Shown here: piece after piece, positions 29,406-33,330 of the stretch
Numbering within the stretch: the stretch's first letter is position 1
Layout of the letters: each line of letters opens with the position of its first letter
NCBI GenBank assembly: GCA_029262155.1
Contig: JAJCZW010000189.1
Span: 1 to 33,913, forward strand
Source: Gemmatimonadota bacterium
Lineage (GTDB): Bacteria; Gemmatimonadota; Gemmatimonadetes; Gemmatimonadales; GWC2-71-9
Reading direction: 5' to 3'
Length of the DNA: 33,913 nt
Position numbers and translations under genes: made by a program
Notes under the pieces: model-generated
Database searches by the model: none
The model's input: the letters and a program-made list of their open reading frames with translations, nothing else
Told to the model about the DNA's origin: nothing

Positions 29406-29458
29406 TGTAGATGTGGCGCTTACGGTCACGTAACCGGATACTGCGTACGGAGGTTCTA

Positions 29459-29683
29459 GTGCCCGTATATGAGAACCGAGGTGGTGACTCTGCGGTGGTC
29501 AGCCATGAGAGCACAAGTGACTCGATCACCGTCACTTTCCACGATGGCTCAACCTACGCCTACGACTACACCGCAACAGGTAGGCACGACACCGAGCAGA
29601 TGAAATCACTTGCCAGAAATGGAGAAGGACTGAACACGTATATCAGCCGATATGTAAGGAAGAGGTACGCGCGCAAACTCTAG
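29459..29683 (+). CDS. Small KTSC-like domain protein
   Basis: 74 residues from GTG 29459, which follows GGAGG by 5 bases; the longer track ORF (29411) adds a non-conserved leader. The sequence VPVYENRGGDSAVVSHESTSDSITVTFHDGSTYAYDYTATG to EQMKSLARNGEGLNTYISRYVRKRY matches a widespread family of 70-80-residue stand-alone proteins with a KTSC-like beta core (SI.V.F.DG..Y.Y) and a conserved GEGLN.YI...V...Y end. Function unknown; such genes are frequent in accessory regions. It lies between two gene-tail remnants, so it may have arrived by insertion. There is no signal peptide. Confidence 0.75.
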   Translation: MPVYENRGGDSAVVSHESTSDSITVTFHDGSTYAYDYTATGRHDTEQMKSLARNGEGLNTYISRYVRKRYARKL

Positions 29684-29879: not shown

Positions 29880-30323
29880 CTATGTCAACCACTTCCTCAG
29901 TCGAGCCCAGATCCCTCGACGCCTCCTTGAACCCTGTCTCTTCCCCTCGTCCCAGGAAGCTCCCGAATGGTTCCTTGCGATGCCTTTCTCGAAATGCGCG
30001 GTTCGTGTGTCCTGGTCCTGAGCCCGCCCGCTTTCAATCTCCGCGCGCGTCCAGCGGCGCGCCCAGGTAACCTCGTTCCCCCTGATCCAATAGTGCGACT
30101 GACAGGGGCAGCTCCAGTTGCCGATCGACGGGTCAAGTGAGATCGTCTCCCCGTCGAAGGTTAGAGTCCAGTCCGCAGGGGATACATCCGAAAGGATCCG
30201 ATCGGCATGTACTTCATTAGCGAGTGCGATCGTGCGGTTAGGAGCCCCGTATTGTGCGCGAGCCGAGGGCTGTGTACGTTCAATGATCGTCGTCCGCCGA
30301 CACCGAATTGAAGCGCAAGGACG
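29880..30323 (-). pseudogene. DUF6527-family reading frame without a usable start codon
   Basis: A minus-strand frame is open from a TAA at 30324-30326 to a TAG at 29880-29882 (about 147 codons) but contains no ATG or GTG upstream of the conserved core, so it is absent from the ORF track. The core reads SPADWTLTFDGETISLDPSI then GNWSCPCQSHYWIRGNEVTW, then RAEIESGRAQDQ, ending GIWARLRKWLT. PSIGNWSxPCxSHYWI is the DUF6527 signature. The usual N-terminal CxCG-type segment is missing (…IALANEVHADRILSDV instead). From memory, DUF6527 genes often sit beside bacterial ubiquitin-like/E1 (ThiF) cassettes; none is visible here. Most likely an N-terminally truncated relic. Confidence 0.7.
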
Positions 30324-30358
30324 TTAGACCGTAGCCTGGTTCGATGATGGGAGGAGCA

Positions 30359-30841
30359 ATGAGGGTAGCGTGGGTCTTTCTGCTTCTAGCGACATTCGCC
30401 AGTCCACGTTTGGCCCAGAAGAACAAGAAGAGCAAGCGATGTTCCGGTACACCAGTCGACTCCACCGCGATGGCGGGGCCGATCTACCAGGACTGCCAAG
30501 TCGACAAACCCGCAAAGCGTAAAGGCGCGTCCCCAAGACTCAACTGGGAATCCAGCGCCGGAGCATCCCCCAACGGTCGCTGCTACCGAGCCGAGTTCCA
30601 GTTTGTCGTCAACGAATTTGGTGGCGTTGTCCCGGGAAGCATCCAGGCGACTTCCTCCAACGACGCCACCTTTGAACAAGCCGTTCAGGGCTCCCTGGTG
30701 CGGCTCCGGTATGAGCCGGCCAAACTCGACGGCCGGGCGGTAGCGCAAGTCGTCGTCTACAAGCAGACCGCATCGGTGGTTGTGGTGGTTAGTTCGTCAC
30801 CGCTCAGGGGAGCGCCTCCACAGGCACCCTTGGGCTGCTAG
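30359..30841 (+). CDS. Secreted TonB C-terminal-like domain protein
   Basis: 160 residues. The ATG at 30359 follows GGGAGGAG closely; the track's 30344 start is upstream of that SD. A signal peptide (MRVAWVFLLLATFASPRLAQ) is followed by a Lys-rich stretch (KNKKSKR) and a domain like the TonB C-terminus: CYRAEFQFVVNEFGGVVPGSIQATSSNDATFEQAVQGSLVRLRYEPAKLDGRAVAQVVVYKQT. The vd.dG.V..si, F..A and .PA..dGr.V elements of that fold are all present. There is no transmembrane anchor or Pro-rich spacer, so it is not an energy transducer itself. Similar stand-alone secreted TonB_C proteins occur in this phylum with unknown role. Confidence 0.75.
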   Translation: MRVAWVFLLLATFASPRLAQKNKKSKRCSGTPVDSTAMAGPIYQDCQVDKPAKRKGASPRLNWESSAGASPNGRCYRAEFQFVVNEFGGVVPGSIQATSSNDATFEQAVQGSLVRLRYEPAKLDGRAVAQVVVYKQTASVVVVVSSSPLRGAPPQAPLGC

Positions 30842-30916
30842 ACCTCGGACAGCATCCTTGGTGACCAGCATCAAGCACGCGGAAATCTGGGCAACACTAT
30901 TGGGAGGGTGCGGGCA

Positions 30917-32464
30917 ATGTTGAACGAATGGAGCCGTTCCGGTTGGTGGGCATCCAATATGTTCTGTCTGACTCTTCTGGCGGCCTGTGGAGATCCCCCG
31001 ACAGGTCCGGTCGATACGGATGAGGCAGATCAGTCAGTCCAGCCTCCACCAGTTGGCGATCTCGCAATAACCTTCGTTCAGGTGAATCTCGGGACTGACA
31101 GGAACGGCGCCACGATAACCTTCACCCATTCGGCCACTAAGCGGGCAAGTGTGGTAACTGGTACCATTCCAGGTTTTCGGGACGTCACACTCGAAGTTGG
31201 GAGTTATTCCTATGAAGTAAGCGATCTGGATCCGAGATGCGAAGCCTTTGGGGACCCAACAGTCGACATCTCGGAGGGTCAGAATGCTCTGACCATTTCC
31301 TTCGATTGCGTTGGAGCCTTCACCTACCAACGGTGGATTTCCAGGGAGTCAAACCAGGTGTGGTGGGTAGATGAGGGCGGGCTTGATCGACCACTCGCAA
31401 CCGAGGGCTTCAATATCGCTCGGGGATTCTCCCCAGATGGGTCCTCAGTACTTGTCGAGGAGTGGATAGGGCGGCAATGCAAGACATCGATCGTCAGTCT
31501 CGATGGTGGACGGATTCAAATCACACCAATGTTCGGCGCCTCCGTCAGTGTTGCAGAATGGTCGCCCGACGGGTCCATGCTCGTCGCGCAGGAGGCTGAT
31601 GCATGCTCGGGCCCTGTCTTCAGTTTTCACATCGTCTTCTATGATAAGGCAGGTAGGGCTACCGGGTTTGTGCCTAAGGAGGGACAATCGATCGACTTAG
31701 AGCCAGCATGGTCCCCGAACGGAAAGACAATCGCCTTCACACGCGGACGCTCCTTGATGCTCTACTGGTTGGAGTCACAGCGCCTTGAGGTCGTACGCAC
31801 ATACGGAACCTCTCGTCCGATCACACGACCCGAATGGTCACCCGACGGGACAAAACTCTTACTTGAAGTTTCTGAACCCCAACAGTTACATGTGATTGAT
31901 CTCGCGACTAGAAGTGTCGTCGAAGGTCGAAGGGACCACCCCGCTTTGGGTCCCTCATGGTATCCGGACAGCCGGCGGATCATTTATGGCACACTGAACG
32001 ATGAGGGAGAGACTCTGTGGTCCTTCGATTCTGAAACTGGAACAACCACGATGGTGCTGACCGATGGACCAAGCGGTGCCGCCTCGCCAAGTTTGTCCGT
32101 AGACGGACGGCAGGTTGTCTTTGATGCGCTCAGCGATGGGGGCGGTCGTGCGATCCTCTTCGCAAACCTCAAAGATGGGCGCAGTCGCGTTATCCACCAG
32201 AACACCGGGTCATATTACATCCTTCCCCGGCTGCGGAGGTGTCGCGGCCCCAGCGCCATGTGCGTGGCTCGCGGCCTGGTGAGAGCGACAGACACCACGG
32301 CGATGGGTAGAGTCGACTCACTCTTCACGCTCGATCGCGCACCGGGACGTCGCCATGGTGGGGGACTCGATCTTAGGGACGGTCGCACAAGCCGTCCTCA
32401 TCGTGCCGGAGGGCACACCCAAGAAACCTCGGCAGTGAAACCCCTCCCGACCTCGATTCGGTAG
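30917..32464 (+). CDS. Lipoprotein with TolB/PD40-like beta-propeller, aberrant C-terminus
   Basis: 515 residues from ATG 30917, which has GGGAGGG 8 bases upstream; the track's GTG 30908 is inside that SD. Lipobox LLAAC is followed by GDPPTGPV. A beta-sandwich-like segment (residues about 45-130) precedes PD40-type propeller blades: GFSPDGSSVLVEEW, EWSPDGSMLVAQE, AWSPNGKTIAFTRG, EWSPDGTKLLLEV, SWYPDSRRIIYGT and SLSVDGRQVVFDA. After about residue 435 (YYILPRLRR) the blade pattern stops and about 80 residues rich in Arg, Gly and His follow. That tail looks like out-of-frame sequence, so the gene may have lost its true end. Surface ligand or protein binding is the likely role. Confidence 0.7.
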   Translation: MLNEWSRSGWWASNMFCLTLLAACGDPPTGPVDTDEADQSVQPPPVGDLAITFVQVNLGTDRNGATITFTHSATKRASVVTGTIPGFRDVTLEVGSYSYEVSDLDPRCEAFGDPTVDISEGQNALTISFDCVGAFTYQRWISRESNQVWWVDEGGLDRPLATEGFNIARGFSPDGSSVLVEEWIGRQCKTSIVSLDGGRIQITPMFGASVSVAEWSPDGSMLVAQEADACSGPVFSFHIVFYDKAGRATGFVPKEGQSIDLEPAWSPNGKTIAFTRGRSLMLYWLESQRLEVVRTYGTSRPITRPEWSPDGTKLLLEVSEPQQLHVIDLATRSVVEGRRDHPALGPSWYPDSRRIIYGTLNDEGETLWSFDSETGTTTMVLTDGPSGAASPSLSVDGRQVVFDALSDGGGRAILFANLKDGRSRVIHQNTGSYYILPRLRRCRGPSAMCVARGLVRATDTTAMGRVDSLFTLDRAPGRRHGGGLDLRDGRTSRPHRAGGHTQETSAVKPLPTSIR

Positions 32465-32748: not shown

Positions 32749-33330
32749 ATGGCGTACGCAGTTGAGACCATCCACCCGTTTCTCGACGGCAACGGGCGAG
32801 TCGGACGATTGCTCATCACCTTTCTGCTGACCGAACGTGGCGTCCTGCAGAAGCCAGTGCTGTACCTTTCGCACTTCTTCAAAAGACACCGGCAGGCCTA
32901 TTACGAGCACCTGCAGGGCGTGCGCCACCAGGGGGAGTGGGAGGCGTGGCTCGCTTTCTTCCTACGCGGTGTGATCAAGGTGGCGGGTGAAGCGGCGGAA
33001 ACGGCCCGTCGCGTTCTTGAGTTGCGCGAGGCCCATCGGACTGCCATAACTGGGAACTTCGGTCGAGCAGCGGGTAACGGTCACATGGTGCTGGAGTCGC
33101 TGTTCGATCGCCCGATCGTGACCGTTCACGATGTACAGCGCATTACCGGTACCACCTACTCAGCCGCGAATAGTCTGGTGGCGCGAATGGTCAGGCTGGG
33201 CATACTCGACGAGATGACGGGCTTTGCCCGCAACCGACGTTTCCACTACTCGCCCTACATTGCACTCTTTAGCGATGAACTGCCGGACAAGATCGGCGAA
33301 CGAACTACCGCGTCAGATACCGCTTCTTGA
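32749..33330 (+). pseudogene. N-terminally truncated Fic-domain (AMPylase-type) gene
   Basis: 193 residues. The open frame begins just before the Fic motif HPFLDGNGRVGR (HPFx[D/E]GNGRxxR), with a stop codon (TAG) 13 codons upstream of the first ATG. Full-length homologues are near 370 residues and have a Fic_N region and about four Fic helices before this motif; all are missing. What follows is normal: LLITFLLTERGVLQKPVLYLSHFFKRHRQAYYEHL and a C-terminal winged helix (VTVHDVQRITGTTYSAANSLVARMVRLGILDEM). No SD precedes the ATG. Fic enzymes transfer AMP to target proteins; class II members carry an inhibitory helix at the N-terminus, lost here with part of the fold. Probably inactive. Its 3' end overlaps the acetamidase end by 26 bases. 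Confidence 0.8.

Follow-up and report, generated by a model that had tools for sequence, protein, structure and literature searches.

The minus-strand reading frame at positions 29880-30323 of the window, by which we mean the whole stretch of 33,913 nucleotides analysed here, is most probably a pseudogene of rather recent origin, since it has lost its start and first cysteine cluster along with the other genes of its operon. We believe that it is probably a young, 5'-truncated DUF6527 gene that marks a lost multiubiquitin-E1-DUF6527 cassette, of the polyUbl type 6e of Iyer et al. Gene calling can miss such a last trace of a ubiquitin-like cassette. The lineage probably once carried or received the cassette, though the searched genomes of the same family yielded none, and repeated decay of DUF6527 is documented in unrelated bacteria. 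At the same time, the DUF6527 family, the operon type (since 2006) and its mobility are already known, and the pseudogene changes no principle.

A DUF6527 frame with no start codon

The preliminary description had placed a conserved DUF6527 core in a minus-strand frame of about 147 codons, and the frame is indeed open from stop to stop over 147 codons. The HMM search against Pfam that it had proposed gave a clear answer: residues 46-88 match DUF6527 (PF20137) with 58.3 bits (E 7.2e-16), far above the gathering cut-off of 23.6 bits, in a match that covers only profile positions 18-63 of 63. When the whole genome was searched with the profile, this frame was the sole match. The C-terminal PSIGNW...CxSHY motif is present as PSIGNWSCPCQSHYWI with all of its invariant columns kept, and the C-terminus that had been called natural-looking, (G)IWARLRKWLT, aligns with the end of full-length homologues (GLWQRFRRWLSGK).

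What the frame does not have is the standard start codon of a functional protein-coding gene. ATG and GTG had been reported missing ahead of the core; in-frame TTG and CTG are absent as well, and only the ATT and ATC codons at 30308, 30287, 30284, 30230 and 30197 are available as possible starts. The open stretch that leads into the remnant (Table 1) is itself preceded by a TAA stop.

Table 1. Features at and to the right of the DUF6527 remnant (positions in the window)
Feature	Position	Strand	Basis or remark
Stop codon TAG	29882-29880	-	End of DUF6527 3' remnant
DUF6527 3' remnant (ADRILSDVSPADW...IWARLRKWLT)	29880..30206	-	Pfam PF20137; alignment to intact homologues
Breakpoint zone: family homology stops just 3' of the CxCGCG codons	30185..30209	.	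Alignment; profile search
In-frame open stretch ahead of remnant, non-DUF6527, no standard start	30207..30323	-	GC3 drop; no N-terminal match
Intact gene, secreted protein	30344..30841	+	Relatives in same-family and same-order genomes
PD40/WD40-like beta-propeller protein, between two truncated genes	30908..32464	+	Profile match
3' half of SoFic-type Fic adenylyltransferase	32764..33330	+	NF046030 positions 187-356 of 361

Boundary of the homology and the lost 5' half

Alignment with 12 plasmid and 76 genome homologues makes the DUF6527 homology secure from SPADW (30185) to the stop, the family-typical tail included, and extends it perhaps to ADRILSD (30206), which aligns with GNEVVTP of the homologues. 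Of the 147 codons, DUF6527 accounts for only about 108. The approximately 39 codons upstream are an unrelated open frame, and GC by codon position is 52/59/72% inside the remnant against 62/64/46% upstream of it.

As had been noticed at the outset, the family's N-terminal Cys segment is gone, and it turns up in none of the six frames near the site: searched over 29.6-31.5 kb, a profile built on the N-terminal half of DUF6527 found no match in any of them, and the CxCGCG cluster is absent there. A frameshift in place of a truncation was rejected on the outcome of this profile search. The missing HxCxCGCG cluster, a mark of membership in the family, has a His and three Cys that are invariant in 55 intact relatives, and the remnant is without half of its likely, predicted metal ligands.

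Intact multiubiquitin-E1-DUF6527 operons

The statement that DUF6527 genes travel with ubiquitin-like/E1 cassettes is borne out, for this subtype, in 12 of 12 plasmids and 76 of the best 80 genomes. For every inspected plasmid homologue the gene immediately upstream is a ThiF-type E1, preceded in 10 of the 12 by an annotated multiubiquitin gene. Among the best 80 genome homologues, which come from many phyla, E1 is directly upstream in 76 and multiubiquitin is present too in 72; the four that depart from this are a copy at a contig end and three eroded orphans. The window's own phylum holds five copies of this subtype (L011-L014 and L016), each with an E1. Elsewhere, the subtype to which the remnant belongs is the last gene of an operon whose first gene encodes Pfam Multi_ubiq and whose E1 carries DUF6791 ahead of ThiF.

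An operon of this kind was reported as row 6e in 2006, comprising polyUbl, an E2/RWD-like protein, E1 and a metal-binding protein, and such clusters were characterized as highly mobile and likened to restriction-modification and toxin-antitoxin loci (PMC1779556). For the zinc protein of the 6e operon, a role as target-recognition or E3-like factor was put forward (Iyer et al. 2006, PMC1779556). The remnant's family fills the place of "metal-binding protein Y" in this operon type, the prototype of which is found on Synechocystis plasmid pSYSX in the order multiubiquitin-E2-ThiF-DUF6527; to judge by its position, the pSYSX DUF6527 gene would be sll6052, the example in PMC1779556. In an intact system, E1 would activate the ubiquitin-like protein, and DUF6527 would work together with it; the predicted role of DUF6527 is probably that of an adaptor, for target recognition or E3-like. 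DUF6527 proteins have no match in PADLOC, and a literature search for papers naming DUF6527 found none.

The remnant is about 40% identical over the shared part to DUF6527 genes of intact operons, such as those on plasmids of Croceicoccus naphthovorans (p1), Adhaeribacter swui and Acinetobacter, and has in common with them the PSIGNW...CQSHYWI core, the downstream W/R/D positions and the Arg-rich helical end of the tail. Intact genes, mostly 115-162 aa, carry FV..IP...GxLYxS...HxCxCGCG in front and stand directly behind E1, whereas the remnant has lost its N-terminal half and its start and has no E1 or ubiquitin-like gene beside it. Unlike the type 6e operon, then, the site shows no polyUbl, E2-like protein or E1, and it retains half of the predicted metal-binding signature.

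The region around the remnant

The remnant is not the only truncated gene in this part of the window. The best relatives of the Fic gene are 390-430 aa long; in the closest, to which the preserved part is 67% identical, the homologous part starts at residue 259 of 430. The missing 5' halves of Fic and DUF6527 face each other across 2.55 kb, with two unrelated plus-strand genes between them, and both truncations could be explained by a single replacement that took out a divergent gene pair. The first of the two, encoding the secreted protein (41% identical to its relative in genome G094 and 39% to that in G002), starts 21 bp past the open frame, at the expected place of the E1 gene. For the comparison of the same locus in relatives that the preliminary description had called for, the only DNA matches were to the adjacent hydrolase gene and to a short piece of PD40.

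Such a setting might also be expected if the DUF6527 fragment had been imported already broken, as the passenger of a mobile element or by recombination, in which case it would still be a pseudogene, at a site that never held a complete cassette. The patchiness of the region, the truncated Fic gene and the sparse coding content between 29.0 and 30.3 kb agree with an import of this kind, as does a partial DUF6527 copy near an IS6 transposase in Phyllobacterium; we nonetheless regard it as unlikely, for no transposase or integrase was seen around 29.0-33.4 kb, a search for direct or inverted repeats or a mobile element flanking 29.0-33.35 kb gave nothing convincing, and the GC3 of the remnant fits the host. 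No second copy of the site was found elsewhere in the genome.

Two minor features lie close by. A 90-aa open frame on the plus strand (29411-29683, VSHESTSDSITVTFHDGSTYAYDY...SRYVRKRYARKL) looks KTSC-like by eye, and in Pfam it gives only a sub-threshold match to DUF2442. A hairpin-like element, TTCAAT...ATTGAAGCGCAAGGACGTTAGAC, at 30240-30330, to the left of the gene at 30344, resembles by eye an integron attC-like end or a terminator. A search for RNA families gave no hit.

Missing cassette partners in the genome and the family

The proposal that a ubiquitin-like system once stood at this site fits the operon linkage of the subtype, but no trace of E1 or multiubiquitin was found in the window with 12, and then with about 70, query proteins. 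As no remnant of either partner survives, it is from linkage only that we infer the former cassette. Beyond the window, Multi_ubiq is absent from the genome, and so is DUF6791, the N-terminal domain of the cassette E1, with a control genome positive in both searches; this absence is not absolute, because the assembly (3.2 Mb in 259 contigs) is about 90% complete. The only ThiF match in the genome is, on inspection of its sequence, a protein of the MoeB-rhodanese type. Both hallmarks of the polyUbl 6e operon, a DUF6791-ThiF E1 directly upstream and a multiubiquitin gene, are therefore lacking here. Because the start codon, the cysteine cluster and the operon are all missing, the proper annotation for the locus is pseudogene rather than working DUF6527 gene.

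A search of roughly 60 genomes of the same family found no DUF6527. In other genomes of the order (L002-L004), a DUF6527 of the PSVWR..GCRSHFF subtype adjoins JAB/E1-like proteins; these genes have the Pfam family and the coupling to E1 in common with the remnant, which is of the different, PSIGNW/multiubiquitin subtype. Also of another subtype are L026/L029 (G358 C150), where a frameshift puts the N-terminal CPCGCG and the PSIWRR core in different frames.

Consider, on the other hand, a misjoin of the assembly near 30.2 kb, with an intact multiubiquitin-E1-DUF6527 operon in the real genome. The draft is fragmented and incomplete, the break is abrupt, and there is no close relative in which the junction could be compared. 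Yet the other half, with its DUF6791 E1 and ubiquitin-like gene, would be expected elsewhere in the assembly, where the searches that succeeded in the control did not find it; the flanks of the remnant on both sides have relatives in same-family or same-order genomes; and comparable stumps occur in other genomes, one of them in a finished plasmid. We consider an artefact of this kind quite improbable.

Conservation, age and predicted fold

The retained part contains 22 near-invariant columns, and the remnant agrees with the family in 18 of them; the four mismatches all fall within its first 7 residues, and every near-invariant residue from SPADW onward is kept. The homologous stretch of about 108 codons contains no stop or frameshift, and the remnant scores as some intact copies do, ranking 10th from the bottom of 77. 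The decay is thus slight, given the preserved core invariants and a score within the intact range. That nothing has changed in 18 codons implies either recent breakage or continued constraint on the remnant, and the approximately 41 non-synonymous sites unchanged in these codons put a rough upper bound of about 0.07 neutral substitutions per site on the time since inactivation.

AlphaFold models an intact relative with a pLDDT of 89.3 (93-98 in the core), as a mostly beta fold with C-terminal helices. The stump reaches 70.8, with zero residues at or above 90, in a prediction made from a shallower alignment (17 sequences versus 55). No PDB relatives of intact DUF6527 were found by sequence, and a structure search of the PDB with the intact model gave no clear match (best E 0.25, TM-score ~0.2); the mostly beta model (A2, mcb86c5396917) has no obvious fit to the treble-clef finger suggested in 2006. 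That the frame is still expressed from one of the ATT or ATC codons (30308-30197) as a short DUF6527-like protein, for example a decoy or regulator, seems to us very improbable, for while its uninterrupted homologous codons, its preserved core and a GC3 of 72%, like that of host genes, would suit such a role, it has no ATG, GTG, TTG or CTG start, is short of the opening strands of the fold and of half the predicted metal site, gives a poor model and has no partner genes in the genome.

Similar stumps elsewhere and a possible route of breakage

The general course of events behind a pseudogene left by the loss of a cassette can be outlined as follows. A complete cassette would formerly have occupied the site, with E1 and the ubiquitin-like gene at positions above 30.2 kb. 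Everything upstream would then have been lost through a break immediately 3' of the CxCGCG codons, such as an insertion and a later deletion could produce, and the leftover stump would have no route to a folded, metal-binding protein.

The first step of this route is documented on a plasmid of Methylomonas sp. DH-1 (L155, 2440-4330), where an IS256 element lies inside DUF6527 right after the CGCG codons, with GGCCACGAAG duplicated on both of its sides as a target duplication. The element is flanked on one side by intact E1 and multiubiquitin genes and on the other by a start-less 3' stump (GHEVVTPLSPADW...) that is unannotated in the record. The plasmid stump and the remnant are alike in having no start and in beginning right after the CGCG codons, and the IS256 break falls at the same codon position as the breakpoint in the window, an agreement that may be due to chance. 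They differ in that the plasmid retains the 5' half, E1 and multiubiquitin beyond IS256, whereas the window has neither these nor a visible element. By analogy with the plasmid, insertion followed by deletion is a plausible route to the stump; as no element or repeat is seen in the window, we infer that route there.

Other decayed copies were found as well. In three of the best 80 relatives (L056, L060 and L089) the N-terminal half is eroded and both E1 and the ubiquitin-like gene are absent, and a genome of the same order (L027) has a shorter, start-less C-terminal stump of the same subtype, again with no E1. It is conceivable, though we think it doubtful, that the loss of polyUbl cassettes recurrently leaves start-less 3' stumps of DUF6527 behind as its footprint, with breaks favouring the CxCGCG codons because knockout of the zinc protein silences a costly cassette. 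The stumps in question would be those of the window, L027, L060, L056 and L089, together with the element-linked copies of Methylomonas and Phyllobacterium, a collection biased toward 3' stumps since the search pattern, SLxPSIGNW, lies in the 3' half of DUF6527. If true, such stumps would preserve a legible trace of selection acting against ubiquitin-like systems in bacteria. In L089 (4752-10183), a Bryobacterales MAG, the orphan, eroded DUF6527 stands by genes for a PLD nuclease, an MZB-domain protein and a helicase, which resemble a DISARM-like DrmC/B/A set.
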